Positions 12,198 through 45,237 of a stretch of 45,237 nucleotides of DNA are shown piece by piece (the first letter of the stretch is position 1; each line of letters opens with the position of its first letter). Under the pieces are notes generated by a model, which did not search any database, was not told the origin of the DNA, and saw only the letters and a program-made list of their open reading frames with translations. This DNA comes from Chitinophagaceae bacterium. Lineage in GTDB: Bacteria; Bacteroidota; Bacteroidia; Chitinophagales; Chitinophagaceae. Both the position numbers and the translations under genes were made by a program. The DNA is taken from NCBI GenBank assembly GCA_017853235.1, contig JAFMJX010000002.1, positions 1 to 45,237 of the forward strand. Reading direction: 5' to 3'.

Positions 12198-13196
12198 TTA
12201 AATAATTCCTTGTTCCATTAAATATTCCGCAATCTGAATCGCATTGGTAGCAGCTCCCTTTCGCAAGTTATCACTCACGATCCACATATTTAAAGTTTTA
12301 GGCTGTGTTTCATCGCGACGTAAACGACCAACAAAAACTTCATCTTTTTCATGTGCCCATAAAGGCATAGGATATAATTGTGTAGCATCGTCTTGTTGCA
12401 CAATGATCCCTGGTGATTTTGTTAATATGTCAGTGACTTCGGCTAAATCAAATTCATTTTCAAATTCAATGTTTACGGATTCACTATGCCCTCCCACTAC
12501 AGGAATACGAACTGTAGTAGCAGTAACTTTAATGGAATCATCCTGCATAATTTTGCAAGTTTCTTTTACCATCTTCATCTCCTCCTTAGTATACCCATTG
12601 TCTAAAAACACATCAATTTGAGGAATTACATTTAAGTCAATTTGATATTTATATGCCATGTCGCTGGCTTGTAAATCAGCACCCCCTCTTTCATTGAATA
12701 ATTGGTCTACCGCTTTTTTACCAGTACCTGTTACACTTTGATAAGTACTTACCACCACTCTTTTAATTTTATATTGAGCATGCAGTGGTTGTAAAGCTAC
12801 TACCATTTGTATGGTGGAACAATTCGGATTTGCAATAATGAAATCTTGTGCTGTTAATACACTTGCATTTACTTCGGGAACTACTAATTTTTTAGTAGCA
12901 TCCATACGCCATGCAGATGAATTATCAATGACACGGATACCTGCTGCAGCAAATTGAGGTGCCCACTCTAAGGAAGTACTACCACCCGCAGAAAACAATG
13001 CCACCGCAGGTTGCGCAGCAATACCTTCTTCCATGGTTACCACTTTATAATTTTTACCTTTAAAAGAAACTTCTTTACCAGCAGATCTTGCAGATGCCAC
13101 AGGCACTAATTCAGTAACAGGAAAATTTCTTTCGGCTAAAACTTGTAACATTTTGGTACCTACTAAACCAGTAGCACCAACCACTGCAACTTTCAT
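12198..13196 (-). CDS. asd: Aspartate-semialdehyde dehydrogenase
   Basis: MKVAVVGATGLVGTKMLQVL, catalytic IIANPNCSTIQMVVAL, VVGGHSESVNIEF. Confidence 0.97.
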   Translation of the reverse strand: MKVAVVGATGLVGTKMLQVLAERNFPVTELVPVASARSAGKEVSFKGKNYKVVTMEEGIAAQPAVALFSAGGSTSLEWAPQFAAAGIRVIDNSSAWRMDATKKLVVPEVNASVLTAQDFIIANPNCSTIQMVVALQPLHAQYKIKRVVVSTYQSVTGTGKKAVDQLFNERGGADLQASDMAYKYQIDLNVIPQIDVFLDNGYTKEEMKMVKETCKIMQDDSIKVTATTVRIPVVGGHSESVNIEFENEFDLAEVTDILTKSPGIIVQQDDATQLYPMPLWAHEKDEVFVGRLRRDETQPKTLNMWIVSDNLRKGAATNAIQIAEYLMEQGII

Positions 13197-29573: not shown

Positions 29574-30551
29574 ATGGCGTCAATGACAAATAACATAAAT
29601 ATTTTATCAGTCGCAAAAAAGGCATTGGCCATGGAGGCCACAGCCATTCAGGAATTGGAGCCTTTTATAGATGCCTCCTTTGTGCAAATAGTGGAAGCCA
29701 TCCATGCCAATACAGGTCGTTTAGTGATTAGTGGGATTGGGAAAAGTGCCATCATAGCTCAAAAAATAGTCGCTACTTTAAATTCAACAGGTAGTGCTGC
29801 TATTTACTTACACGCAGCGGATGCTATTCATGGTGATTCAGGAATGATTCACCCGCAGGATATGGTGATGGTGATTAGTAAAAGTGGAGAAAGTCCTGAA
29901 ATCAAAAATTTAGTACAGCTCATACAACAATTTGGCAATCCTATCATTGGGATGGTGGGCAATACGAATAGTTACTTAGCGCAACATGCTCATCATGTTA
30001 TTAATACCACTGTTACGCAAGAGGCTTGCTTGAACAATTTAGCACCTACTTCATCTACCACTGCACAAATGGTGATGGGAGATTTATTGGCGATATGCCT
30101 GATGGAATTAAATCAATTTGATGCCACGAATTTTGCAAAATTTCATCCTGGTGGTAATTTAGGAAAACGACTTACTTTAACTGCAGGAAACATTGCTCAA
30201 GTAAATGCAAAACCATCTGTACATAAAAACACCTCTATAAAAGAAGTCATCATAGACATTTCAAAAGGCAGATTGGGTGCGACGGTGGTGACAGATGAGC
30301 AATCAAATGTATTAGGTATCATTACAGATGGAGACATTCGAAGAATGCTTGAACAACATAATTCTATTCAAGATTTAAAAGCAGAAGATATTTATCATAC
30401 CAACTCCATTACTATAGCCCCCCATGCATTAGCAATAGAAGCTTTAAACTTGATGGAACAAAAAGACATCAGCCAACTCATAGTTGCAGAAGGTCAAAAG
30501 TACATAGGTATGATTCATATCCATGATTTAATGAAAGAAGGGATTTTATAA
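29574..30551 (+). CDS. kdsD: KpsF/GutQ family arabinose-5-phosphate isomerase (SIS plus two CBS domains)
   Basis: SIS motifs RLVISGIGKSAIIAQKIVATLNSTG, MVISKSGESPEIKNLV; TSSTTAQMVMGDLLA; FHPGGNLGKRL; C-terminal CBS pair. Confidence 0.95.
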   Translation: MASMTNNINILSVAKKALAMEATAIQELEPFIDASFVQIVEAIHANTGRLVISGIGKSAIIAQKIVATLNSTGSAAIYLHAADAIHGDSGMIHPQDMVMVISKSGESPEIKNLVQLIQQFGNPIIGMVGNTNSYLAQHAHHVINTTVTQEACLNNLAPTSSTTAQMVMGDLLAICLMELNQFDATNFAKFHPGGNLGKRLTLTAGNIAQVNAKPSVHKNTSIKEVIIDISKGRLGATVVTDEQSNVLGIITDGDIRRMLEQHNSIQDLKAEDIYHTNSITIAPHALAIEALNLMEQKDISQLIVAEGQKYIGMIHIHDLMKEGIL

Positions 30552-30575
30552 AAATAAAAAACAAGTAAAGTTGTT

Positions 30576-31661
30576 ATGCAGCATAAACATCATTACGTAG
30601 CCATCATGGCGGGAGGAATTGGGAGTAGATTTTGGCCAATGAGTCGCACTTCTTATCCAAAACAATTTTTAGACGTTTTAAATACTGGGAAAACACTCAT
30701 TCAATGGACCTTTGACAGATACGCAAAATTTATTCCTACAGAAAACATATTCATTGTCACTTCAGAAGAATATGTAGATATTGTCAAACAACAATTACCA
30801 CAAATTCCAGTTCAAAATATTTTAGCAGAGCCAAGTAAAAAAAATACAGCACCTTGTATTGCTTATATTTCTTTTAAGTTAGCACAACTGGATCCTGAAG
30901 CAACTTTTATTGTAGCTCCTAGCGATCATTTAATTTTAGAAGAAGCTAATTTTGAAAAAATTACTATACAAGCACTTGACTTTGTAAACAATATTAAAGC
31001 ATTAGTAACATTAGGTATTAAACCCACACATCCCAACACCGGATATGGTTACATTCAATTTGAAGGTTTAGAAGTAGCAAATGGAGTTTATAAAGTAAAA
31101 ACATTTACTGAAAAACCAACTTTAGAAATTGCAGAGTCCTTTTTATCCAGTGGAGACTTTTTATGGAATGCAGGTATTTTTGCTTGGAAAGTGTCTACCA
31201 TATTAGCTGCTTTTGAAAAATATCAGCCTGAGATGTATGAATTGTTTGATCAAGAAAAAAACGCATTCAATACGGATCAAGAACATAAAGCAATTCAAAA
31301 AATTTATCCTCAGTGTACCAATGTTTCTATTGACATTGCCATTATGGAAAAAGCATCCAATGTGTTTGTCATTCCATCAAGTTTTGGTTGGAGTGATTTA
31401 GGAACCTGGAATAGTGCCTATGACAATATGGAAAAAGATTATTTTGGAAACGCTGTAGCTTCGGATAATGTCATTGTCATTGATGCCACTAAATGTATGG
31501 TGAATGCTCCTAAGGATAAATTAGTGGTTTTACAAGGATTAGATGATTTTATTATAGTGGATACGAAGGATGTTTTACTTATTTGTAGTAAGGAAAAAGA
31601 ACAATCCATTAAAGAATATGTAGCAGAGGTGAAGAGACATAAGGGAGACAAATACATCTAA
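30576..31661 (+). CDS. manC: Mannose-1-phosphate guanylyltransferase
   Basis: IMAGGIGSRFWPMSRTSYPKQFLD nucleotidyltransferase signature, FIVAPSDHLI, FTEKPTLEIAESFLSSGDFLWNAGIFAW. Confidence 0.95.
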   Translation: MQHKHHYVAIMAGGIGSRFWPMSRTSYPKQFLDVLNTGKTLIQWTFDRYAKFIPTENIFIVTSEEYVDIVKQQLPQIPVQNILAEPSKKNTAPCIAYISFKLAQLDPEATFIVAPSDHLILEEANFEKITIQALDFVNNIKALVTLGIKPTHPNTGYGYIQFEGLEVANGVYKVKTFTEKPTLEIAESFLSSGDFLWNAGIFAWKVSTILAAFEKYQPEMYELFDQEKNAFNTDQEHKAIQKIYPQCTNVSIDIAIMEKASNVFVIPSSFGWSDLGTWNSAYDNMEKDYFGNAVASDNVIVIDATKCMVNAPKDKLVVLQGLDDFIIVDTKDVLLICSKEKEQSIKEYVAEVKRHKGDKYI

Positions 31662-31724
31662 GGTTTGGGTAAATATCCTATCTTAGATAACATCAATCAA
31701 ATTGCACAGTTAAATTACCCCTAA

Positions 31725-32792
31725 ATGGCAACTATTATTAGCGGAACAGGAAGTTACATTCCAAATATTGTTATTACCAATGAATCATTTATTGACCATA
31801 CTTTTTATGGTGAAGATGGCCAATTAATTGCCACCCCCAATGCCGAGATAGTAGAGAAATTCAAAGACATTACAGGGATTTACGAAAGAAGATACGCCCC
31901 TGAAAATTTAAACACTTCCGAATTAGCCACCAAAGCGGCGGAATTGGCAATTCAAGATGCAGGCATTGATCCTGAAACCATCGATCAAATCATATTTGCG
32001 CATAATTTTGGAAACGTCATTCAAGGAACGATACAAACAGATACTATTCCTGCTTTAGCATCCCGTGTGAAACATCAATTAGGAATAAAAAATCCAAATT
32101 GTGTGGCTTATGATATTTTATTTGGTTGTCCAGGATGGATACAAGGAGTGATTCAAGCTGATTCTTTTATCAAATCGGGTATGGCCAAAAGATGTTTGGT
32201 TATAGGGGCCGAAACTTTAAGCCGAGTTGTAGACGCACACGATCGTGATAGTATGATATTTAGTGATGGAGCAGGTGCATGCATTGTGGAAGAAGCCCCT
32301 GCAGGATCCCAGAGCGGAATTTTAGCAGCCAGTGTTCAAAGCCATTGTGTGGATGAAACTTATTATTTATACTTAGGAAAGTCCTATCATCCTGATGGTG
32401 AAGAAGATACTAGATATATTAAAATGAAAGGTCGTAAAGTATATGAATACGCTATTAAAAACGTACCCATTGCTATGAAAGAATGTATTGAGAAAGCTGG
32501 CGTAGATATACATGATGTAAAAAAATTCTTCTTGCATCAAGCCAATGAAAAAATGGATGAAGGATTTATAAAAGCACTTTATAAGTTATACCATATTCGA
32601 ACTGCACCAGAACATATTATGCCAATGAGCATTCATGAATTAGGGAATAGTTCGGTTGCTACAATTCCAACTTTATATGATATGGTGAAAAAAGGTAAAT
32701 ACAAGGAGCATGTATTACACCAAGGAGATGTTGTTATTTTCGCTTCTGTTGGAGCAGGAATGAATATAAATGCAATTTGTTATAGAGTATAA
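31725..32792 (+). CDS. 3-oxoacyl-ACP synthase III (FabH-like) family protein
   Basis: Cys site DILFGCPGWIQG, His site FFLHQANEKM, Asn site HELGNSSVATIPTL. Confidence 0.9.
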   Translation: MATIISGTGSYIPNIVITNESFIDHTFYGEDGQLIATPNAEIVEKFKDITGIYERRYAPENLNTSELATKAAELAIQDAGIDPETIDQIIFAHNFGNVIQGTIQTDTIPALASRVKHQLGIKNPNCVAYDILFGCPGWIQGVIQADSFIKSGMAKRCLVIGAETLSRVVDAHDRDSMIFSDGAGACIVEEAPAGSQSGILAASVQSHCVDETYYLYLGKSYHPDGEEDTRYIKMKGRKVYEYAIKNVPIAMKECIEKAGVDIHDVKKFFLHQANEKMDEGFIKALYKLYHIRTAPEHIMPMSIHELGNSSVATIPTLYDMVKKGKYKEHVLHQGDVVIFASVGAGMNINAICYRV

Positions 32793-32798
32793 CGAGCA

Positions 32799-34646
32799 TT
32801 AATAGCCTCTTACATTTTTACCTTCTATATAGTTTACAAAAGCTTTATTGCAAACTTTGTTACCCCCTGGTGTAGGGTAATTACCAGTGAAATACCAATC
32901 GCCTGTATTAGTGGGACAACACTCATGTAAATCTTCTATGGTCTGATAAATTACTTCCACAGGAATGGTTGAATTTTCGGGCGTAATTAATGCTGCAATT
33001 TTATCTGAAATTTCTTCAGGTGTAAAAGGCTTATATAATTGACGTACTACATTTTCGGTATGCAACTCACCTGCAGCATCTAATTGTTTTATTCTTTGAT
33101 AGGTTTCATCAATGACGTTTTCCATGCCTTTTTCTTTTAATAAAGCTATGGCAGCACGAAAAGCAATAAAATCACCCATTTTACTCATATCTATTCCATA
33201 ACAATCAGGATATCTAATTTGTGGTGCAGATGATACTACAATAATTTTTTTAGGAGAAAGTCTTGACAACATTCTAATAATACTTTCCTTAAGGGTAGTG
33301 CCACGAACAATACTATCATCAATAACAACTAAAGTGTCTTCATCCTTACGAACAGTACCATAAGTTATATCGTAAACATGTTGCACCATTTCGTTGCGAT
33401 TTGCATCCTCGGTGATAAAGGTTCTTAATTTAACATCCTTAATGGCAATCTTTTCTTGTCTTATTTTACGATTTACCATTTGTTCCAACTTCTCCTCATC
33501 AATATCATTTCCCCAACTTAAAATTCTTTCTACCTTAATTTTATTCAAGTATTCTTCCATTCCTTTTACCAATCCAAAAAATGCTACTTCAGCAGTATTA
33601 GGAATGTAGGAGAAGATGGTATTTTTTAAATCTTTTTCTATGCGATCCAATACACGAACGCTTAAATGGTTGCCTAGAGCAATACGTTCGCGATAAATTT
33701 TTTCATCACTGCCTCTTGAAAAATAAATACGCTCAAAAGAACATGCTCTTCTTTCTTTAGGTGCTATAATTTGTTCCACACTATATTTACCAGTATCGTC
33801 CACTACTAAAGCGCAGCCTGGCATTAATTCCAACACTTCATTTTCGGCCACATTAAAAGTTGTTCTAATAGCAGCGCGTTCACTAGCTGCAACTATCACT
33901 TCATCATCAATGTAATAATATGCAGGGCGAATTCCATTAGCATCACGCATAATAAAACTATACCCATTACCTACTAAGCCGCCCACTGTGAAACCTCCAT
34001 CAAATAATGGTACCGCTTTTTTAAGCACATTAATGATATTGGGATTATTGGGGTTTAATTTTTCTTCTTCCTCCAAAAAATAGTGAACTACTTCCATCAT
34101 CGCAGCCAAATCACTTTCTTTTTCAAAAGTGCCAGGTTGCATATTAATATGTTGATATAGCTCGTCGGTATTGACTAAATTAAAATTACCCGCTAATGCT
34201 AAATTTTTTCCAGGGACCAAATTGCGTTTGATAAAAGGATGACAAAATTCAACATTATTTTTACCCTGGGTACCATAACGTAAATGTCCTAATAAAATTT
34301 CCCCCATAAAAGGCAAATGACCTTTCATTAAACCTGGATGCTTGGAAATATCTGGCTGAAATTTTTCCAACTCTTGAATTTCTAATCCAATTTTGTAAAA
34401 TAAATCGGCAATAGGTTGTTGTGCATTACTACGAAGTCGATATAAAAAAGGATTACCTGGTTCGATGTTTAATTTTAAAGTGGCTAATCCTGCTCCATCC
34501 TGCCCACGATTATGTTGTTTTTCCATTAACAAGTATAATTTGTTAAGGCCGTAGGTTACTGATCCTCTTTTTTGAAGATAATAAGAAAGTGGTTTTCTTA
34601 AACGAATGTAAGCAAGGCCACATTCGTGTTTGATGTCATCGCTCAT
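32799..34646 (-). CDS. Amidophosphoribosyltransferase-like protein (class II glutamine amidotransferase plus PRTase; long Bacteroidota form)
   Basis: Cys9 in MSDDIKHECGLAYIRL, EKQHNRGQDGAGLAT, HLRYGTQGKNN, PRPP loop LVVIDDSIVRGTTLKESI. Confidence 0.88.
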   Translation of the reverse strand: MSDDIKHECGLAYIRLRKPLSYYLQKRGSVTYGLNKLYLLMEKQHNRGQDGAGLATLKLNIEPGNPFLYRLRSNAQQPIADLFYKIGLEIQELEKFQPDISKHPGLMKGHLPFMGEILLGHLRYGTQGKNNVEFCHPFIKRNLVPGKNLALAGNFNLVNTDELYQHINMQPGTFEKESDLAAMMEVVHYFLEEEEKLNPNNPNIINVLKKAVPLFDGGFTVGGLVGNGYSFIMRDANGIRPAYYYIDDEVIVAASERAAIRTTFNVAENEVLELMPGCALVVDDTGKYSVEQIIAPKERRACSFERIYFSRGSDEKIYRERIALGNHLSVRVLDRIEKDLKNTIFSYIPNTAEVAFFGLVKGMEEYLNKIKVERILSWGNDIDEEKLEQMVNRKIRQEKIAIKDVKLRTFITEDANRNEMVQHVYDITYGTVRKDEDTLVVIDDSIVRGTTLKESIIRMLSRLSPKKIIVVSSAPQIRYPDCYGIDMSKMGDFIAFRAAIALLKEKGMENVIDETYQRIKQLDAAGELHTENVVRQLYKPFTPEEISDKIAALITPENSTIPVEVIYQTIEDLHECCPTNTGDWYFTGNYPTPGGNKVCNKAFVNYIEGKNVRGY

Positions 34647-34655
34647 GATGGAGTA

Positions 34656-36050
34656 TTAATACACTTTTTCGGTAACTATTGCGTCAGCTGCTTTTTTCCA
34701 ATCAGTCAATTCCACACATCCATTATATTCTGGATCTACGAAAATATAATAATTGGGAATATGCTCCTTAAACCAGCTTTCTAATTGTTTCGTCTTTTTT
34801 TCCTCTAAGGCTCTTTGTGAGACACGATTGTAGTCTTCTTTCAAATTTTCCTTATGAGGTTCGGTTCTTTCTTTGAAATAAATGATACGAACAGTTTTAC
34901 GACCGCGATCATCATTGTATACTTGAGGACTTGAAATTTCACCTGGTTTTAAATTTTTCATTAAAACCACCATATCCTTATCCAATTGATCAATGTTTAC
35001 ATAACTAGATCCATCTGCTCCTGTAATAGAACCACCGCTAAACTTGCTGGCATCGTCATCGCTATATTTATTAACTGCTTCTCCAAAAGACATTTTATTG
35101 GCAAGTACTTCCTTACGAATGCTATCTAATAAATGTTTGGTGTCATTAATTTCATCGTTGGTGATAGGTGGAATTCTTAAGATATGTTTAACCACTGCAT
35201 CATCACCCGAACGTGATACTAATTGGATAATATGATACCCAAATTTAGATTTAATAGGTGCCGAAATTTGACCTTCTTTTAAACGGAATGAACCCGCCAT
35301 AAATGCAGGATCCCAAGTTTTTTCGTTTCTGTTGATATTAAATTGACCTAGGTTTTCTTTAGCACTTGGATCCTCTGAATATAATTTTACCAATTGATCA
35401 AACTTATTAATGCCTGTTTCAATTTGATGACGATAATCCATTAATTGCTTGATGACATATTCTTCAATGTCTCGATTTGCTTTGGGATGTATTATAATTT
35501 CGGCAATGTTTACTTCGCTTTCATATAAAGGCAAGCTGTCTTTAGGAATTTTGTTATAAAAGGCACGCACTTCAAAAGGAGTAATCTTTACTTTATCTAC
35601 AATTTTGGATTGCATTTCTGCAGCCAACTTTTGCTCTTTAATCATTGTACGGAAATCTTCCTTCAATTGTTGAATACTACGACCCGCTACTTCTTCTAAC
35701 ACTTCTTTAGATCCAAATTGTTGTAAAAAACTTCTAATACGCGTATCAATTGCATTTTCAACTTCTTCTTCGGTTACTAAAATGGAATCCTTTTCGGCTT
35801 GTAAAACCAAGGCCTTACGGATCATTTGTTGTTCCACAACTTGGCATAAGGTGGGTAAAGTGACATTTTCTTGGCCTTGCGCTTGTCTTTTTAAATCTAA
35901 CAGGGCATTCTCTACATCCGATTTTAAAATAAATTTATCTCCAACGGTACCCACAATTTTGTCGGCTAATACTTTTTTTGTTTGCGCTATCGAACTTATA
36001 GATAAGCCTACAAAAAGAAAACAAACAACAAGTTTAACTAGTTTCATCAA
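34656..36050 (-). CDS. surA: Periplasmic peptidylprolyl isomerase, SurA-like
   Basis: Signal peptide, SurA N-domain (KIVGTVGDKFILKSDVENALLDL), parvulin PPIase regions (LVKLYSEDPSAKENLGQF, FGYHIIQLVSR). Confidence 0.92.
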   Translation of the reverse strand: MMKLVKLVVCFLFVGLSISSIAQTKKVLADKIVGTVGDKFILKSDVENALLDLKRQAQGQENVTLPTLCQVVEQQMIRKALVLQAEKDSILVTEEEVENAIDTRIRSFLQQFGSKEVLEEVAGRSIQQLKEDFRTMIKEQKLAAEMQSKIVDKVKITPFEVRAFYNKIPKDSLPLYESEVNIAEIIIHPKANRDIEEYVIKQLMDYRHQIETGINKFDQLVKLYSEDPSAKENLGQFNINRNEKTWDPAFMAGSFRLKEGQISAPIKSKFGYHIIQLVSRSGDDAVVKHILRIPPITNDEINDTKHLLDSIRKEVLANKMSFGEAVNKYSDDDASKFSGGSITGADGSSYVNIDQLDKDMVVLMKNLKPGEISSPQVYNDDRGRKTVRIIYFKERTEPHKENLKEDYNRVSQRALEEKKTKQLESWFKEHIPNYYIFVDPEYNGCVELTDWKKAADAIVTEKVY

Positions 36051-36075
36051 TATTTTTATTAATGTTCAAAGGTCT

Positions 36076-36102
36076 GATAGATGGGTGGTATACCCAACTA
36101 TC
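36076..36102. repeat. Hairpin in the infB-surA spacer
   Basis: GATAG-A-TGGGT-GGTAT-ACCCA-A-CTATC; no clear T-tract. Confidence 0.6.
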
Positions 36103-36116
36103 AAATCTTAATTATT

Positions 36117-38945
36117 TTATAAAGTACGCTTTACTTCTTCCTCTTCAAATGCTTCTACGATATCACCTACTTTTAAGTCAATAAAGTTTTTGATCGTCAA
36201 GCCGCATTCCATATTTGAAACCACGTCTTTCACGTCGTCCTTAAAGCGTTTCAAGCTTCCTAATTCGGCAGCCTGACCTTCCCCTTTAGGATATTCTACG
36301 ATACCATCACGAATGATACGTATTTTACTGTTACGACTTAATTTACCATCCAATACAAAACAACCAGCAACAGTGGCTTTATCAAATTTGTACACTTCGC
36401 GTACTTCCACATTCGCTGTAATTTTTTCTTGGATCTTAGGCTCTAACATACCTTCCATAGCGCTCTTAATTTCATCAATAGCGTTGTAGATAATAGAGTA
36501 TAATTTAATTTCCACTCCTTCATTTTCCGCTAACTTATTTGCTTGCATAGAAGGACGAACGTTAAATCCAATAATAATCGCATCAGAAGCTGCAGACAAC
36601 AATACATCTGATTCAGAAATTTGTCCTACTCCTTTTAAAACAACTCTAACTGCAATTTCTTCGGTAGAAAGTTTTTGTAAAGAATCACTTAAGGCTTCTA
36701 CAGAACCATCCACATCCCCTTTGATGATAATATTCAATTCCTTAAAGTTTCCTAATGCTAAACGACGACCAATTTCATCTAAAGTAATATGTTTTCTAGT
36801 TCTTAAACCTTGTTCTCTTAATAATTGAGCACGTTTAGTAGCTAATTCTTTGGCTTCCGATTCGTCTTCAAATACTTTGAATTTTTCACCTGCTTGAGGT
36901 GCTCCATTTAATCCTAATATCACCACAGGTGTAGATGGAGGTGCTGTTTCAATACGTTGATTACGCTCATTGAACATCGCTTTGACTCTTCCATAAAACT
37001 GACCTGATAAAATTAAATCTCCTTGGCGTAAAGTTCCATTTTGAACCAAGATGGTTGCTACATATCCACGTCCTTTATCTAAAGAGGCTTCAATAATAGT
37101 TCCAGTTGCTTCACGATTTGGATTGGCTTTTAAATCTAGAATTTCAGATTCCAATAATACTTTTTCTAATAAAGCATCTACATTTAAACCTTGCTTAGCA
37201 GACAATTCTTGGTTTTGGAATTTACCACCCCAAGCCTCTACTAAAATATTCATTTGAGAAAGTTGCTCATATATTTTTTGTGGATTGGCACCATCCTTAT
37301 CAATTTTATTCACCGCAAAAATCATAGGAACACTTGCAGCTTGAGAGTGACTGATGGCTTCTCTAGTTTGAGGCATCACAGCATCGTCTGCAGCGACAAC
37401 TATAATAGAGATATCAGTTACTTTAGCACCACGCGCACGCATCGCAGTAAAGGCTTCGTGACCCGGCGTATCTAAGAAAGTAATTGCTTTACCATTTGGC
37501 AAGGTCACTTCATAGGCACCAATATGTTGCGTGATACCTCCTGCTTCCCCTGCTACTACATTGGCATTACGTATATAATCTAGTAAAGAAGTTTTACCAT
37601 GATCTACGTGACCCATAATAGTTACAATAGGAGGACGTTCAACCAAATTCGCTTGATCTTCTAATTCTTCTTCTTCATCCATTTCATCGGCTTCTTCCAA
37701 TCCTACAAATTCAACTTCAAAGCCAAATTCGCTTGCAACTAATTCAATTACTTCCGCATCTAAACGTTGGTTAATGGAAACCATGATGCCCAAGTTCATA
37801 CACTTACTAATGATATCAGCAAAACTTACATCCATTAAACTAGATAACTCACTCACTGTCACAAACTCGGTGACTTGTAATTTATTGTTTTCTAGATTTT
37901 CATTTTGTTCGTTTTCCGCTGCTTCTTCGCGTTTAGCACGACGATATTTTGATTTCAATGATTTACCTCTTCCACCCGCGCCAGATAATTTTGCTTGGGT
38001 TTCTTTGATTTTATCTTGAATCGCTTTTTGATCAATTTCTTTTTGTTCGGCGGTTTGTGGTGCATATTTATTATTGCGCCCCCCTGCTCCCGGACGATTT
38101 CCACCTGGACGATTTCCACCTTGTTGTCCTGGGCGATTGCCTCCTTGTTGGTTTCCACCTGGACGATTTCCTCCCCCTTGTTGACCTCCTTGTTGAGGTT
38201 GATTTGGTCGGTTTCCGCCACCTTGCACTGGAATACGTTTACGAACACGTTTTTCCTCTTGACTCATTGGTTTAGGACGCGTATCACTATTCATAGGTAA
38301 ATCAATTTTACCCATAATTTTTGGACCTTCTAAACGAGTTGCTTGAATATTCTCAATTTTTCCATGCACATTTTCGGGCGCGATCGAATGATCTACTGGA
38401 GGTTCTACTGGTTTGTCTTCTGCTTTTGTTGCTTTCTTTTTTGGAGCAGCTGGAGCAGGAGTTTCAGCTTTAGGTTCTTCCGCTTTTTTAGTTCCTTTTT
38501 TAGGACGAGTTGAAGAATCAATTTGAGATAAATCTATTTTATCTACTACTTTAGGTGCTTCTACTTCAGGCGCCTTTATATTAACAGGAGCTTCTTCAGC
38601 AACTGGTGCCGCTTTGGTAACTGGAGCTGCAGCTTCTACAGCAGGTGTTTCAACCACTGGCTTTTTAGCAGCAGGTGCCGCTTTTTTTGCGGTTTCCTCT
38701 TCTTTTTTGCCTTTATCTGCAATAGCATTCTTTGGCAATTCAACATGATCTGCTTTATCTCTAGCGACCTTATCACTTTGGAATTCGGCTTGTAGAGAAT
38801 AATACTGATCCTCTGTTAATTTAGCTGCTGGCTTAAGGTCATCCTTAGGATAACCTTTTTTTACTAGGAATTCAATCAGGGTATCCTGACCGATGTTAAA
38901 TTCCTTAGCAGCTGCTAGCAGTCTTGGTAGTTTCAATTCTGACAT
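36117..38945 (-). CDS. infB: Translation initiation factor IF-2
   Basis: [43 protein letters not shown]; long low-complexity N-terminal extension. Confidence 0.98.
38060..38235 (-). repeat. Low-complexity [12 protein letters not shown] repeat-coding segment within infB
   Basis: Encodes [50 protein letters not shown]; repeated ggacgatttccacct units on the + strand. Confidence 0.85.
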
Positions 38946-39002
38946 TCTGTTATTTTTTGTCCCGAATCATCTGTTGGATGTATCGGAACGAGTCACCTAA
39001 TA

Positions 39003-39010
39003 CAAATATA
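39003..39010 (-). promoter_or_regulatory. Candidate internal -7 element (TATATTTG) upstream of infB
   Basis: Exact TAnnTTTG on the minus strand in the nusA-infB spacer; no -33 found. Confidence 0.35.
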
Positions 39011-39026
39011 CTTTCAAAAATCAAGG

Positions 39027-40277
39027 TTATTCACCTTTATCAAACTCTTCTTGTAAGATTCTTCTCACGTCTGCGATTGTCTCTTTTTCTAAATCCGTTC
39101 TGCGTTCTAATTCCTCTGGACTTAACTTGATGACACTGCGGGCAGTATCACAACCCACACGCTTAAATTCGTCAATAATCCAAGTTTCAATTTCATCGCT
39201 AAATTCATCTAAGTCAATATCAAATTCATCCACCATTTCTTCATCTTCGCGGTACACATCTAATTCGTATCCGGTTAATTCGGAAGCTAATTTAATATTT
39301 ACACCACGACGACCAATCGCTAAAGAAACTTGATCTGCTTTTAAATAAACTTCAACACGTTTGGTATCATTATCAATGTTCATGTAGCTAATTTTTGCTG
39401 GCGTCAAGGAACGTTGAATTAATAACTGCGTGTTAGTGGTATAGTTAATAACATCGATGTTTTCATTTTTCAATTCTCTAACAATTCCATGAATACGACT
39501 TCCTTTCATACCCACACAAGCACCCACTGGATCAATACGATCATCAAAAGATTCCACTGCAACTTTAGCGCGTTCTCCTGGTTCACGAACAATTTTTTTG
39601 ATAGTGATTAAACCGTCAAAAATTTCAGGTACTTCAATTTCTAACAACTTCGCAAGGAATAAAGGACTGGTTCTAGATAAAATAATAACTGGTGAATTAT
39701 TTTTCATATCCACTCTTGCTACTACTGCACGAATATTCTCTCCTTTTTTGAAAAAGTCCTGTGGAATTTGTTCTGTCTTAGGAAGAATTAATTCATTTCC
39801 TTCTTCATCTAATAATAAAACTTCTTTTTTCCATACTTGATAAATTTCAGCATTGATGATATCGCCAATTCTATCAGAATATTTTTTAACTAAAACATTT
39901 TTCTTTAAATCATTAATACGAGAAGCTAAAGTTTGTTTAGCAGCTAAAATAGCACGACGACCAAAATCAAGAATATCTACCTCCTCATATAAGTCCTCAC
40001 CTATCTCAAAGTCAGGCTCAATAGTGATTGCGTAAGAGTAAGAAACTTCTTCCAATGGGTTATCTACATCGTCATCTGGACGAATTTGGCGACGACGAAT
40101 AATCTCAAGGTCACCTTTTTCGGCATTTACAATGACATCGAAGTTTTCATCACTGCCATATTTTTTTCTGATCAAAGTTTTGAAAACATCTTCCACTACT
40201 TTCATCATCGTAGGACGATCAATATTTTCAGCGTCTTTAAACTCCTGAAATGCGTCGATCAAATTTATACTTGCCAT
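39027..40277 (-). CDS. nusA: Transcription termination/antitermination factor NusA
   Basis: MASINLIDAFQEFKDAENIDRPTMMKVVEDVFKTLIRKKYG, S1 and KH domains (DPVGACVGMKGSRIHGIVRELKNENIDVI, SLAIGRRGVNIKLASELTGYELDV). Track TTG start (40295) is probably not used; ATG at 40277. Confidence 0.97.
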   Translation of the reverse strand: MASINLIDAFQEFKDAENIDRPTMMKVVEDVFKTLIRKKYGSDENFDVIVNAEKGDLEIIRRRQIRPDDDVDNPLEEVSYSYAITIEPDFEIGEDLYEEVDILDFGRRAILAAKQTLASRINDLKKNVLVKKYSDRIGDIINAEIYQVWKKEVLLLDEEGNELILPKTEQIPQDFFKKGENIRAVVARVDMKNNSPVIILSRTSPLFLAKLLEIEVPEIFDGLITIKKIVREPGERAKVAVESFDDRIDPVGACVGMKGSRIHGIVRELKNENIDVINYTTNTQLLIQRSLTPAKISYMNIDNDTKRVEVYLKADQVSLAIGRRGVNIKLASELTGYELDVYREDEEMVDEFDIDLDEFSDEIETWIIDEFKRVGCDTARSVIKLSPEELERRTDLEKETIADVRRILQEEFDKGE

Positions 40278-40291
40278 AACATACTTTTTTT

Positions 40292-40306
40292 TCAAGCACT
40301 GCTTGA
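40292..40306. repeat. Perfect palindrome in the rimP-nusA spacer
   Basis: TCAAGCA-C-TGCTTGA on the + strand, 15 nt upstream of the nusA ATG. Confidence 0.85.
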
Positions 40307-40313
40307 TGATTTG

Positions 40314-40784
40314 TTAAAATTGTATTTGAACTATTGTTGATTTTATATTTTCAAACGGTATAAGCAGTTGTTGTTGCACTGCTTTTTTTCCTTTGCCTTC
40401 GGTCCACTCAATTAAAATATCCGCTTCCGCTACAGTGAGTAAAATGCCTTCTTTCACCACTCCATCCAACAAAGTAACTTGTACTTTTCTACCCACATTT
40501 TTGTTGTATTGTCGCTTCAGCAACAAAGGCTCGTCTACACCCGGTGATGAAACTTCTAATGAAAAATCACCCTCAGGAAACCATGCTTCTTCTTCTATCG
40601 CCTTATATAATTTGCGATTAAAAAAAGTACATTTCTCAATTGGCAAACCTTGATCCCCATCCAAAAACACTTTAATATTATTGGTAGGCTTGATTTTAAT
40701 TTGCACAATAAAATAGCTTGACTCCTCTTCTAAAAAAGATTCAATGACTGCTTTTACTTTATCAATTAATAGGTTTGGTTCCAT
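40314..40784 (-). CDS. rimP: Ribosome maturation factor RimP
   Basis: Position directly before nusA-infB; FLEEESSYFIVQIKIKPTNNIKVFLDGDQG, DFSLEVSSPGVDEPLLLKRQYNKNVGRKVQV. Confidence 0.95.
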   Translation of the reverse strand: MEPNLLIDKVKAVIESFLEEESSYFIVQIKIKPTNNIKVFLDGDQGLPIEKCTFFNRKLYKAIEEEAWFPEGDFSLEVSSPGVDEPLLLKRQYNKNVGRKVQVTLLDGVVKEGILLTVAEADILIEWTEGKGKKAVQQQLLIPFENIKSTIVQIQF

Positions 40785-40787
40785 AGT

Positions 40788-40821
40788 AAAAAAAGAAGAA
40801 GGGAACGATTTCGTTCCCTTC
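40788..40821 (-). terminator. Intrinsic-terminator-like hairpin directly upstream of rimP (candidate operon attenuator)
   Basis: Minus strand GAAGGGAACGA-AA-TCGTTCCCTTC followed by TTCTTTTTTT, ACT, then the rimP ATG. Confidence 0.85.
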
Positions 40822-40840
40822 GATAGCTTTTACACTGGTC

Positions 40841-40872
40841 CAAAGGTAATAAATAGGGATGAAATAACCATA
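40841..40872 (-). promoter_or_regulatory. Candidate promoter of the rimP-nusA-infB operon
   Basis: Minus strand TATG-N20-TACCTTTG: exact TAnnTTTG -7, 3/4 match to TTTG -33. Confidence 0.5.
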
Positions 40873-40890
40873 AAATAATAGAATAGCCCT

Positions 40891-40898
40891 TATTTTTG
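40891..40898 (+). promoter_or_regulatory. Candidate -7 element (TATTTTTG) for the DUF4834-type gene
   Basis: Exact TAnnTTTG ending 4 nt before the ATG at 40903. Confidence 0.5.
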
Positions 40899-40902
40899 TA
40901 AT

Positions 40903-41115
40903 ATGAGCAAGTTGATTTTTTACGGTTTAATGATCTATTTCCTTTACAAACTGATCTTCAATATTGTTGTTCCAGTAAGCGATGGCATTAAAAATGTAAG
41001 GCAGAATATGGAACAAAGACAATCCTCTTCTACAACTCCTAATGCTTCATCTACTCCCCCTAAAAAGGAGACCCCAAAAGACGAAGAATACATTGATTTT
41101 GAGGAAGTTAAGTAA
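40903..41115 (+). CDS. Small membrane protein, DUF4834-like
   Basis: 70 aa; N-terminal TM segment MSKLIFYGLMIYFLYKLIFNIVVPV and acidic tail EYIDFEEVK. Confidence 0.75.
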   Translation: MSKLIFYGLMIYFLYKLIFNIVVPVSDGIKNVRQNMEQRQSSSTTPNASSTPPKKETPKDEEYIDFEEVK

Positions 41116-41146
41116 TATTCACGCTTGCATAAACTCCAATAAAAGC

Positions 41147-41770
41147 TTACAAGTAATCAAAAATACATTGATGTATTTTCATACATTCTGTTAAATGTAT
41201 AGTAGACATACCCAAGGAAGCTGCCGCTTCCACATTTGGCTTGTTATCATCAATAAATAAAGTCTCAGAAGCCATAAGTGATTCATTTTCAAGTATTTGA
41301 GCAAAAGATGCAGGATCTGGTTTGCGCATCCCTAATTCATGTGAAAAATATGCTTTCTTAAAAATACTTTGAAAGGGGACATCCGCTACTTCTCTTTCAA
41401 ATTCGGGTATAAAATGGTCAAAATGTATTTGATTGGTATTGGAAAACAAATAAATATTGTATGCTCGGTCATTTTCTAATATCCAATTGATAGCCGCTTT
41501 TCGATAACCCATTAATAGTGAATTCCATGCAGTTGTAATTTGTAATGGGCTTAACACTACTGGAGAAATTTTATTAAAGCCTTCAAAAAATTGTGTCTGA
41601 TTTATGGTGCCCTTTTCTAGTTCAAAAAATAAGGGATCTGATTGATTTAAAGTAAAATAGGTTTCAAAATGAGGAATCCCCAATTCCTCAAAGGATTGGT
41701 ACATTTTTGTAAAATCAATGTCATATAATACATTACCTAAATCAAAAATTATATTTTTAACTTTATTCAT
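41147..41770 (-). CDS. HAD family hydrolase (HAD-IA-like)
   Basis: IIFDLGNVLYDID, LFSNTNQIHFDHF, GMRKPDPASFAQIL, LFIDDNKPNVEAAASLGM. Confidence 0.93.
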   Translation of the reverse strand: MNKVKNIIFDLGNVLYDIDFTKMYQSFEELGIPHFETYFTLNQSDPLFFELEKGTINQTQFFEGFNKISPVVLSPLQITTAWNSLLMGYRKAAINWILENDRAYNIYLFSNTNQIHFDHFIPEFEREVADVPFQSIFKKAYFSHELGMRKPDPASFAQILENESLMASETLFIDDNKPNVEAAASLGMSTIHLTECMKIHQCIFDYL

Positions 41771-41795
41771 AAATCAATGTTGAAATCAAATCCAA

Positions 41796-41942
41796 ATGAG
41801 TAAAAAAGGAAAAAGTCGAAGTCAAAAAATGTATGATAAAGAATTTGGAAATCATATATTATTGTTTAATAAGCTTACCGTTAGCAGGACTAAAGGTAAA
41901 TCTTATTCATCTTATATAGCGTTTAGTCTATTTAATTCATAA
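41796..41942 (+). CDS. Candidate 48-aa small basic protein (below the ORF-track cutoff)
   Basis: ATG..TAA encodes MSKKGKSRSQKMYDKEFGNHILLFNKLTVSRTKGKSYSSYIAFSLFNS in the 193-nt gap between HAD and VOC genes. Confidence 0.3.
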   Translation: MSKKGKSRSQKMYDKEFGNHILLFNKLTVSRTKGKSYSSYIAFSLFNS

Positions 41943-41963
41943 AATAATTTAAAAAAATATTGA

Positions 41964-42362
41964 ATGTCACAGCAATTAGCGCATATAAGTTTAGTAGTAA
42001 GAGACTATGATGAAGCGATACAATATTATACTCAGGTTTTGGGATTTAAATTAATAGAAGACACAAAATTGTCTGATGTTAAAAGATGGGTAATCGTAGA
42101 ACCCAATGGCAGCATGGGTGGATGTCAATTATTATTGGCAAAGGCAGCTACTCCCGAACAAGAAAAACATATTGGGAATCAAACTGGAGGAAGGGTATTT
42201 TTATTTTTATTTACGGATGATTTTGAAAGAGATTATCAAAATTATATTGCTAAAGGCGTCCTATTCACAATAGCTCCTCATACCGAAGAATATGGCACGG
42301 TTGCCGTATTTAAAGATTTATATGGAAATCTTTGGGATTTAATTCAGCCAAATAAAAAGTAA
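41964..42362 (+). CDS. VOC family (glyoxalase/bleomycin resistance-like) protein
   Basis: AHISLVVRDYDEAIQYYTQVLGFKLIEDT ... TVAVFKDLYGNLWDLIQP. Confidence 0.93.
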   Translation: MSQQLAHISLVVRDYDEAIQYYTQVLGFKLIEDTKLSDVKRWVIVEPNGSMGGCQLLLAKAATPEQEKHIGNQTGGRVFLFLFTDDFERDYQNYIAKGVLFTIAPHTEEYGTVAVFKDLYGNLWDLIQPNKK

Positions 42363-42378
42363 AACCCAAAAAATATTT

Positions 42379-42837
42379 TTATAAAGGAAGTGCAGTTGTG
42401 ACTTTTATTTCATCCATCACAAATAAACTATTAATGTGAGCCACCATGGGGAGTACTGCTAATTTTTCTTGATAAAACTGATTATATGTTTCTACGTCCT
42501 TGGTTACTAATTTTAAATAATAGTCAAAGCTACCCGACACTAAACTACAGGATATAATTTCGGGAAATTGAGCAATGGTTTTTTCAAATTCAGAAAAATG
42601 ACTTTTAGTTTGTTTATCTAAAGTCACCTGACAATGCACTACCAATCCAAGTTCTAATTTTTTTCGATCCAATAATGCCACATATTGTTGGATATAACCT
42701 TCGTTTTCTAATCTTTTAACACGATCATGCGTAGGACTTAAGGAAAGATTAACCTGCTTACTGATGTCTTTTAGGGTTACTAAAGCATTTGTTTGTAACA
42801 ATTTTAAGATGGATCGATCAATATTGTCTATGGCCAT
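42379..42837 (-). CDS. Lrp/AsnC family transcriptional regulator
   Basis: IDNIDRSILKLLQTNALVTLKDISKQVNLSLSPTHDRVKRLENEGYIQQYVALLD, followed by a RAM-type domain. Confidence 0.96.
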   Translation of the reverse strand: MAIDNIDRSILKLLQTNALVTLKDISKQVNLSLSPTHDRVKRLENEGYIQQYVALLDRKKLELGLVVHCQVTLDKQTKSHFSEFEKTIAQFPEIISCSLVSGSFDYYLKLVTKDVETYNQFYQEKLAVLPMVAHINSLFVMDEIKVTTALPL

Positions 42838-42847
42838 AACGAAATAA

Positions 42848-42859
42848 TTTCTGTAAAAA
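42848..42859 (+). promoter_or_regulatory. Candidate Lrp-type operator box, lrp-proximal
   Basis: TTTCTGTAAAAA; 11/12 match in opposite orientation to the ald-proximal box; overlaps a -7-like TAACTTTT for the lrp gene. Confidence 0.4.
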
Positions 42860-42966
42860 GTTATTTTTGAACTCTAAACTACCAATTATTTGTTTAAAAT
42901 ATCTTTTTTACCATATTTTTTACTGAATTTTTATATAAATAAAAGAATATTTCCTTTTGAGTGATA

Positions 42967-42978
42967 TTTGTACAGAAA
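42967..42978 (-). promoter_or_regulatory. Candidate Lrp-type operator box, ald-proximal
   Basis: Minus strand TTTCTGTACAAA, 14 nt upstream of the ald ATG at 42993. Confidence 0.4.
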
Positions 42979-42992
42979 TAAAAACAAATATT

Positions 42993-44078
42993 ATGATCAT
43001 TGGAGTTCCTAAAGAAATTAAGATACAAGAGTACCGAGTAGGTCTTACTCCAGAAGGAGTAGATGCTTTAAGCAGACAAGGACATACCATTTATGTAGAA
43101 ACGCAAGCAGGTGCAGGTTCTGGTTTTTCGGACGATGCCTATAAAAATGCTGGTGCAAGTATTTTAGCGACTGCAAAAGAAGTATATGAAATTGCCGAAA
43201 TGATTGTAAAAGTGAAAGAGCCTTTGGCAGTAGAATATCCTTTAATAAAATCAGGTCAAATTTTATTCACCTATTTCCATTTTGCAGCGTCTAAGGAACT
43301 AACCGATGCCATGATGAAATCTCATGCAGTTTGTATTGCATATGAAACTGTTGAATTGCCTGATGGTTCACTGCCATTATTGGTTCCTATGTCGGAAGTG
43401 GCAGGTAGAATGGCTGTGAATGTGGGAGCTTATTATTTAGGTAAGCCATTTGGTGGTAAAGGAAAATTATTAGGTGGTGTTCCAGGGGTGAAGCCAGCCG
43501 AAGTATTAATTATAGGAGGGGGAATTGTAGGAACACAAGCTGCGAAGATGGCTGCTGGTTTAGGTGCCAATGTCACTATCATGGATACCAATTTAACACG
43601 ATTAAGATATTTATCAGATGTGATGCCTGCCAATGTAGTCACTCAATATTCTACCGTTTTAGCAATTCGCGAAAAATTACCACATACCGATTTAGTCATT
43701 GGTGCAGTATTATTACATGGAGCTAAAGCACCTCACTTAATAAAGAAGGAAGATTTAAAAACCATGGAAGCAGGTTCGGTTGTGGTGGATGTTGCAGTTG
43801 ATCAAGGTGGATGTATTGAAACTTGTCGTCCAACTACACATGAAAATCCGGTGTATGTGGAAGAAAATGTATTGCACTATTGTGTAGCAAATATGCCAGG
43901 TGCCGTTCCACAAACATCTACACGTGCATTAACACAAGCTACTTTACCTTATGCAATGTCTATAGCAAACAAAGGTTGGGAAAAAGCATGTGCCGAAAAT
44001 CCAGCTTTAGCAAAAGGGTTAAATATTCGTGCGGGAAAAATTTTGCACAAAGGGGTATCAGAAGCGTTTAATGGATAA
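42993..44078 (+). CDS. ald: Alanine dehydrogenase
   Basis: MIIGVPKEIKIQEYRVGLTPEGVDAL, VLIIGGGIVGTQAAKMAAGLGANVTIMD, VVVDVAVDQGGCIETCRPTTHENPVYVE. The TTG start at 42957 in the track is less plausible. Confidence 0.97.
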   Translation: MIIGVPKEIKIQEYRVGLTPEGVDALSRQGHTIYVETQAGAGSGFSDDAYKNAGASILATAKEVYEIAEMIVKVKEPLAVEYPLIKSGQILFTYFHFAASKELTDAMMKSHAVCIAYETVELPDGSLPLLVPMSEVAGRMAVNVGAYYLGKPFGGKGKLLGGVPGVKPAEVLIIGGGIVGTQAAKMAAGLGANVTIMDTNLTRLRYLSDVMPANVVTQYSTVLAIREKLPHTDLVIGAVLLHGAKAPHLIKKEDLKTMEAGSVVVDVAVDQGGCIETCRPTTHENPVYVEENVLHYCVANMPGAVPQTSTRALTQATLPYAMSIANKGWEKACAENPALAKGLNIRAGKILHKGVSEAFNG

Positions 44079-44102
44079 TTGATTTTTGGTGATAAAAAAA
44101 AC

Positions 44103-44136
44103 AAAAGCCACTTCGAAATATCGGGGTGGCTTTTTT
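44103..44136. terminator. Bidirectional terminator between convergent ald and the GNAT gene
   Basis: AAAAGCCACTTCGA-AATA-TCGGGGTGGCTTTTTT (10-bp stem with two G-U pairs, T-tract). Confidence 0.85.
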
Positions 44137-44626
44137 AATACACTTCTTTTACATATAATTTTTTATTCACTTTAAAACCGCGTTTGGTATAAAAATTTTG
44201 ATTCAGAGTAGAGTTGATATAACAACTTACATGTAATTTAAATACTTTTTTTGCAATAGTAAATTGCTCAATGGCTTGGTATAAAAATTCAGCAGCATGC
44301 AATTTTCTATATTTTGGCAATACAAATAATGTTTGGATTTCTATAAAAGGAAATTTATCTAGAAAAGTTTGTCTGTATTGCAATACAGCACCCCCGGCTA
44401 CTTTTTTTTCTTCATCTTCAAGTATCAAAAAAAAATATTCTTTGTTTTTTATTTTTTGCTTATAAAATTCATCAAATTCCATCATATTCCAAGGCTTTGT
44501 CAATTGCATGCTAATGGCATCCTGAAAATGCATTACATCATTCAACTGAGCTTTTCGAATATTAAAATGAGGAACTCGATTCATATTGCTAAAATGAGAT
44601 TTAGTATTTGGTAATATAAATATCAC
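44135..44626 (-). CDS. GNAT family N-acetyltransferase
   Basis: FNIRKAQLNDVMHFQDAIS ... VAGGAVLQYRQTFLDKFPFIEIQTLFVLPKYRKLHAAEFLYQAIEQF. Confidence 0.85.
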   Translation of the reverse strand: MIFILPNTKSHFSNMNRVPHFNIRKAQLNDVMHFQDAISMQLTKPWNMMEFDEFYKQKIKNKEYFFLILEDEEKKVAGGAVLQYRQTFLDKFPFIEIQTLFVLPKYRKLHAAEFLYQAIEQFTIAKKVFKLHVSCYINSTLNQNFYTKRGFKVNKKLYVKEVY

Positions 44627-44698
44627 TTGTTATTATAATCAAAATGTTAAGCAATCATGAACAAATTGTTAAGTGTTATGATAGAAGAGTTTGGAAAA

Positions 44699-44730
44699 AA
44701 AAGGCTGGCTTCTTCAGAAGCCAGCCTTTT
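44699..44730 (-). terminator. Intrinsic terminator after the surface-protein gene
   Basis: AAAAGGCTGGCTTC-TTCA-GAAGCCAGCCTTTT, perfect 14-bp stem 20 nt past the stop codon; T-tract on the minus strand. Confidence 0.92.
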
Positions 44731-44749
44731 AATATTGTCAAACTATATT

Positions 44750-45237
44750 TTAGTAATTAAATCTAGCCCAACCTTTCCACCAAGTTGCATCTTCACCATT
44801 TAAACCCACAGCACCTCTAAAAGTAACTGGTTTAATGAATGCATTTTGTAATTTTGAATCCGTAAAACTTCCGTTACTTGCATAGTTAAAGTTAGCAGCA
44901 ACGCCTACAGGTAAGTTCGCTGCAGTTGGAGCTGCGGTACCTGCATAAGGTGTTGGATCAAATAATGTATAATTAAACGGCTGAATTAATTTTGCATCAA
45001 CCGCATTGGTTGTAATAGCATTACCATAACTAGGAGTTGAAACCCATGCTAACATACTTGCTGCTGTTGCACCTGTAGGAGCAGAAGAACTTGCTGTATA
45101 AGCAACATTCACTGTGTTTCCTGCAAAAGTATTATTCTTGAAGCGAATAGTACTATCAGCAATATTTAAATCAGTTGGAGATCCTAAACCAGCATCAATT
45201 AACAATGCAGTTGGCCATCCTAAGAAAACTGAATTTT
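44750..45237 (-). CDS. C-terminal part of a large secreted/surface protein (5' end outside window)
   Basis: Frame is open through the window edge (..FLGWPTALLIDAGLG..); Thr/Ala/Asn-rich; ends VTFRGAVGLNGEDATWWKGWARFNY. The track start at 45205 is internal. Confidence 0.7.
   Translation of the reverse strand, partial: NSVFLGWPTALLIDAGLGSPTDLNIADSTIRFKNNTFAGNTVNVAYTASSSAPTGATAASMLAWVSTPSYGNAITTNAVDAKLIQPFNYTLFDPTPYAGTAAPTAANLPVGVAANFNYASNGSFTDSKLQNAFIKPVTFRGAVGLNGEDATWWKGWARFNY

Follow-up and report, generated by a model that had tools for sequence, protein, structure and literature searches.

A conserved terminator-like hairpin in the leader of the rimP-nusA-infB operon of Bacteroidia, a probable attenuator that stays with nusA in genomes without detectable rimP

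What does a structure that looks like a transcription terminator do between the promoter and the first gene of an operon? The question is raised by a 45,237-nt stretch of DNA from a Chitinophagaceae bacterium (assembly GCA_017853235.1, contig JAFMJX010000002.1, positions 1 to 45,237; hereafter the window), whose minus strand carries rimP, coding for the ribosome maturation factor (40314..40784; Pfam RimP_N and DUF150_C above cut-off), nusA (39027..40295, with a likely ATG start at 40277, MASINLIDAF...; Pfam NusA_N and KH domains) and infB, coding for IF-2 (36117..38945; Pfam IF-2 and GTP_EFTU). These domains match RimP, NusA and IF-2 and confirm the operon identity proposed in an earlier note on this DNA; the adjacency of rimP and nusA was also found across the class sample described below. 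Upstream of the operon, a small, putatively DUF4834-like gene was read from the sequence on the plus strand (about 40903..41115). Beyond it lies a minus-strand HAD hydrolase gene whose end, at 41147, is some 325 nt away, in agreement with the earlier statement that this gene ends more than 300 nt away, across the divergent gene. Because the immediate neighbor is divergent, no upstream minus-strand gene ends at the hairpin.

Reading along the minus strand, a promoter-like box is followed by a short leader, a perfect hairpin of 11 bp, a T-tract and the rimP ATG. The box, TACCTTTG (40841..40848), is a predicted Bacteroidota-type -7 promoter element (TAnnTTTG) and is preceded, across an N20 spacer, by the poor -33 region TATG (40869-40872). 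A 5' leader of 19 nt (40822..40840) precedes the terminator-like hairpin GAAGGGAACGA-AA-TCGTTCCCTTC (40798..40821), which is defined by sequence, folding, conservation and covariation. The adjoining T-tract TTCTTTTTTT (40788..40797), which is interrupted in the window, would form the U-tract of the putative terminator; it reads TYCTTTTT in the genus and is T-rich in other families. Thirteen nucleotides lie between the stem and the rimP ATG at 40784, the last three (ACT) separating the T-tract from this start codon. The earlier note had described the same order of promoter-like box, hairpin, T-tract and ATG, and direct reading of the sequence bears it out, except that the gap in front of the ATG is 3 nt and not 4 nt as claimed. 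With the promoter and transcription start site of the window operon assigned from consensus, transcription would start at about 40836, at the usual distance from the -7 box and approximately 15 nt ahead of the hairpin, and an attenuated RNA would have an expected length of about 45-50 nt.

Folding of the leader yielded a minimum free energy of -25.9 kcal/mol (z = -6.1), with none of 200 dinucleotide shuffles being as stable, and the stem by itself accounted for -17 kcal/mol. The site is the top-scoring terminator-like site within positions 30000-45237, and the hairpin pattern matched once in the whole window and never in shuffled sequences. An Rfam scan of the site returned chance matches only and no cis-regulatory match (E up to 10). 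The parts of a leader-peptide or riboswitch type of control are not present: the leader of approximately 50 nt, being mostly hairpin, contains no leader ORF, aptamer or antiterminator and has no room for these or for a ligand domain, and the approximately 15 nt located 5' of the hairpin hold no complement to its 5' arm.

Conservation of the element was analyzed at increasing phylogenetic distance. Within the genus, rimP loci were obtained from 36 genomes, 29 of which included upstream sequence. All 29 carry the element, with a near-invariant stem and T-tract between diverged flanks (consensus: GAAGGGAACG, A/G, 2-3 nt, T/C, CGTTCCCTTC, TYCTTTTT), and 20 additional loci from public contigs agree with this pattern. 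Over the same range, RimP identity falls to 57% and the remaining leader can no longer be recognised from one half of the genus to the other. Compensatory changes from A-U to G-C are found in L024 and L029, and the loop-closing pair, either A-U or G-C, is compensatory as well. In L022, L026 and L027, the hairpin is situated about 30-100 nt ahead of the start codon and does not adjoin it. The exact genus motif exists as one copy per genome in 28 genomes and, by exact-pattern search, is absent from other genera. Two terminators of the window served as controls: an ordinary 3' terminator (19565-19539) is recognisable in the nearest relative only, whereas the asd terminator is conserved in the genus but is probably itself an attenuator. 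As the two controls gave opposite answers, stem conservation inside the genus is suggestive, not decisive.

In other families of the order, a diverged element with the core GRGGGRAC..GUYCCCYC and a T-tract was identified upstream of rimP in 20 of 20 loci, in nearly all of them just behind a TAnnTTTG box. The class was sampled with 60 loci representing 54 families of Bacteroidia. An automatic rule for a hairpin plus T-tract recovered the element in 52 of these, compared with 0-1 of 60 in each of 20 dinucleotide-shuffled sets; this is the widened form of the rule, as a narrower region and rule had called 33/60 loci on the sense and 21/60 on the antisense strand. Inspection added five loci, in which an extended stem had defeated the rule, and removed one (L176), so that 56 of the 60 loci carry the element. 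L157 shows a weaker variant. A GGG in the 5' arm was present in 49 of the 52 automatically found hairpins. The promoter is equally constant: 66 of 70 leaders have a TAnnTTTG-like box no more than 34 nt ahead of the hairpin, and TTTG or TTCG was found at most 45 nt upstream in each of the 49 class leaders tested. The hairpin is far from a chance occurrence and is conserved in almost the entire class Bacteroidia.

Three of the 60 class leaders (L160 from G086, L176 from f64 and L183 from f72) lack a recognisable element, as do further members of f64 (L265, L266) and f72 (L264) despite linked rimP and nusA genes; another element-less leader is L256 (G085). The absence of the hairpin from some linked operons indicates that it is not indispensable. 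A separation of rimP from nusA was considered as the cause of hairpin-less leaders and was ruled out, since linkage is kept there. In the element-less leaders of f64 and f72, the start codon is located close behind the promoter.

Covariation was examined in an alignment of 34 distinct leaders (A2). In this alignment, 97.7% of cells are paired, and six of nine pairs show two-sided changes, amounting to 45 doubly changed cells, a result that none of 500 shuffles reached; the pairing signal collapses once the partner is slid by one column. Three pairs, including the loop-closing C-G, are invariant, G-U pairs occur and the loop varies from 3 to 8 nt. Across relatives, the distance from hairpin to start codon ranges from a few nt to about 100 nt, and the spacing from promoter to hairpin is short. 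The one-sided T-tract, the variable loop, the covariation and the G-U pairs are consistent with a hairpin that forms in RNA and serves as an intrinsic terminator just after initiation. Conservation and covariation had been named in the earlier note as checks of a promoter-proximal terminator or attenuator; the first held across genus, order and class and the second in the stem pairs, and both support that reading.

A model of the element (R1) has a single match in the window's own genome. Across the class, it matches many generic, nearly symmetric AAAAGGGGAC..GTCCCCTTTT terminators and is not specific as a stand-alone detector; therefore, the location beside rimP or nusA, and not the score, was used to call the element. 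In many Bacteroidia, R1 also matches bidirectional terminators whose stems are of the AAGGGGAC type, which suggests that the stem sequence reflects in part a general terminator preference of the class. Away from rimP, nearly symmetric terminators of the form AAAAAAGGG[AG][AG]C..GT[CT]CCCTTTTTT turn up repeatedly in Bacteroidia and give scores on both strands (seen at L108, L112-L118, L121, L122, L124 and L129, with matches near position 1501). It is possible that they represent a class-wide terminator style.

Eleven genomes of the class sample gave no RimP_N match. The region upstream of nusA was readable in eight of them, and in seven of these eight (f37, f66, f46) the promoter, hairpin and T-tract are situated before nusA; the eighth genome, G085 (0.5 Mb), has no hairpin before nusA. 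Wider sampling extended this arrangement to seven of seven genomes in f37. In f66, which is represented by a single genus (g71), all five rimP-less genomes carry the hairpin before nusA and four genomes show the order hairpin, rimP, nusA. G084, also rimP-less, has nusA headed by the same promoter, hairpin and T-tract. The hairpin of G177 (f66) is found about 270 nt ahead of the nusA ATG, and the hairpins of G105 and G186 are weak, not reaching significance by themselves when folded (z = -1.7 and -0.6). Wherever a rimP-less locus reaches infB, nusA is followed by infB. A RimP profile that included four same-genus RimPs gave no match with E up to 1 in any of the 13 rimP-less genomes, which are drafts and in most cases no less than 95% complete; the same profile recovered RimP from four same-genus controls with E below 1e-58. 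Matches to PF17384 in G075 and G156 were considered as a relocated rimP and rejected, as by eye these ORFs read like YajC. Among the loci L256-L263 and L267-L282 (f37, f66, f46), several near-complete genomes of Bacteroidia seem to have lost rimP, with g71 holding both states.

Thus, a promoter, hairpin and T-tract head nusA(-infB) in 13 rimP-less genomes of three families, and one genus exhibits both states; this is new here. From the gene order, rimP appears to have been lost from the locus while the leader stayed with nusA. As these 13 genomes keep the element before nusA, the element tracks nusA and not rimP, which suggests that it controls nusA, probably through NusA itself. In the leaders examined, nusA follows in the predicted operon, and the 13 rimP-less genomes have it as their first gene. 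We would give an even chance to the further proposal that the module of promoter, hairpin and nusA is the unit of inheritance, with a NusA-sensing attenuator that is ancestral to Bacteroidia and was re-attached to nusA on rimP deletion. If true, natural rimP deletions would show that NusA dosage, and not RimP, is served by the most common bacterial attenuator.

The structure in question is most probably a promoter-proximal intrinsic terminator, built from hairpin and T-tract, that functions as an attenuator of the rimP-nusA-infB operon, with NusA as the best candidate effector. In this mechanism, RNA polymerase would start approximately 15 nt upstream and form the hairpin at once; a fraction of polymerases would stop after about 45-50 nt, and the remainder would read through into the operon. 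Termination at the hairpin and its efficiency are predicted from the sequence. Since nothing in the leader could serve as antiterminator, leader ORF or ligand domain, the share of polymerases that read through would have to be set by factors that act on the polymerase during elongation. NusA stimulates intrinsic termination. This property, its being encoded in the operon and its autoregulation by leader termination in Bacillus subtilis make it the candidate, and by analogy we lean toward NusA as the effector. High NusA would then lead to more termination and consequently to less of its own operon, resulting in negative feedback. The retention of the hairpin before nusA in rimP-less genomes, together with the analogy to B. 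subtilis and Escherichia coli, provides indirect support for such NusA sensitivity.

The leading alternative, unlikely but to be reckoned with, is a fixed throttle that terminates a constant fraction of transcripts and thereby sets the output of the operon without NusA feedback. Neither a sensing domain nor an alternative structure is found in the leader, and the strong stem of the window may not need NusA at all; however, NusA feedback via such leaders is described in B. subtilis (PMC12288461) and E. coli (PMC6511841), and the retention of the element with nusA after rimP loss fits feedback, though without proving it. Recognition of the conserved stem by RimP or another protein, which would then regulate the operon, is improbable. 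It would agree with the high primary-sequence conservation of the stem in the genus and with the three invariant pairs among the 34 leaders, yet RimP as the effector is contradicted by the 13 genomes that have no detectable RimP and keep the element before nusA, and G-rich 5' arms are likewise found in the stems of class terminators that do not belong to rimP.

The fixed position of the hairpin relative to the promoter, its variable position relative to the start codon and its variable loop favor a terminator or attenuator over both a translation block and a DNA operator. That the hairpin limits initiation of rimP translation, the alternative offered in the earlier note, is suggested by the 3 nt between T-tract and ATG in the window; it has been weakened and is now quite improbable, since the hairpin always lies close behind the promoter and at changing distances from the start codon (e.g., in L022, L026 and L027), precedes a different gene, nusA, where rimP was lost, and would not need the conserved T-tract for this role. 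The observed terminator shape would also suit an ordinary 3' terminator, or an insulator against upstream transcription, and a hairpin at the 5' end can protect mRNA. Both roles are very improbable here: the neighboring gene is divergent, the predicted promoter box of the operon is located upstream of the hairpin, so that transcription of the operon has to pass it, the ordinary 3' terminator of the window (19565-19539) is recognisable in the closest relative only, and a stability hairpin does not require a T-tract. There is hardly any probability left for a palindromic DNA operator that lies directly behind the promoter and binds a dimeric repressor. The inverted repeat is perfect and adjoins the promoter, and covariation cannot distinguish the two cases, as paired arm changes would equally keep operator symmetry; however, a loop of 3-8 nt means that half-site spacing is not constant, the T-tract keeps to one side and one orientation and the stem contains G-U pairs.

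The preferred reading, an attenuator, has close relatives. The rimP-leader has been presented as the most widespread of attenuators, its conserved terminator stem having a G-rich and a C-rich arm and NusA being the suspected effector (Naville and Gautheret, 2010; PMC2965389); the main text of that study does not mention Bacteroidetes. As described there, rimP-leaders share with the Bacteroidota element the location upstream of rimP-nusA-infB, the short terminator with a G-rich 5' arm, a C-rich 3' arm and a T-stretch, the lack of a visible antiterminator and a distance of 4-130 nt from the gene (13 nt from stem to ATG in the window). In contrast to the GGGc..gCCC signature given in that description, the Bacteroidota core is GGG-RA-C..G-UY-CCC: nearly all of the 34 leaders have the GGG and all have the loop-closing C-G, with RA in between (GGGRAC..GUYCCC), so that the literal GGGc(...)gCCC is partly matched. 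The Bacteroidota element is, moreover, also found directly before nusA without rimP, unlike the rimP-leader as presented there (PMC2965389). Judged by its sequence, it belongs to the rimP-leader kind while matching the literal signature only in part.

A structured element 5' of rimP without an Rfam match is reported for Flavobacterium psychrophilum and other Flavobacteriaceae (PMC9723704). It agrees with the present element in phylum, gene, conservation and lack of an Rfam match; the passage concerned, a single sentence, calls it original, does not name it a terminator or rimP-leader and does not extend it beyond the family. In the E. coli metY-rimP-nusA-infB operon (t1/t2; RF01770), the rimP-proximal terminator CTGGGCTTTAGGCCCTTTTTTTATG is alike in place and design, consisting of a GC hairpin, a T-tract and the ATG, whereas the E. 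coli leader differs in having two terminators upstream of rimP and in being long and containing a tRNA gene. RF01770 gave no match at the window site (E up to 10) and none above the gathering cut-off in 40 class genomes, with a positive E. coli control; G000 matches were on other contigs. E. coli NusA regulates its own expression (PMC6511841), NusA-stimulated attenuation is reported for the B. subtilis nusA operon leader (PMC12288461, citing Mondal et al., 2016) and termination occurs 31 nt after the transcription start site in the Streptococcus agalactiae rimP leader (PMC4448216). Premature termination in the same operon is thus experimentally supported for the B. subtilis and S. agalactiae leaders, whereas here it is predicted from sequence.

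No description of the class-wide extent, the consensus or the rimP-less nusA leaders was found in the literature consulted. With the present analysis, the rimP-leader family comes to include the Bacteroidota, a phylum whose promoters are of a type of their own and in which few attenuators are known; the element now has a covariance model and a clean consensus, neither of which is in Rfam. Lineages without rimP tell the two candidate targets, RimP and NusA, apart with no bench experiment needed, and what the leader senses becomes directly testable by comparing sister species that have or lack rimP.

A second leader of the window was observed in the course of the control analysis. The asd gene (12198-13196, minus strand) is preceded by a leader (13364-13252) with a short ORF, MNLYKHTKQNKKPH*, which reads MMKNKHTKQIKKPL* and MMNMKHTKRIKKPL* in relatives and is rich in Lys codons, with Thr and, in the relatives, Ile codons. 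A GGAAGG in this leader (about 13321-13311) is complementary to the 5' arm of the next terminator, GCCTTCCA..TGGAAGGC plus T-tract (13280-13252). From this sequence arrangement, the asd leader is a probable leader-peptide attenuator and looks like a case of control by aspartate-family amino acids; the arrangement is kept in most members of the genus.
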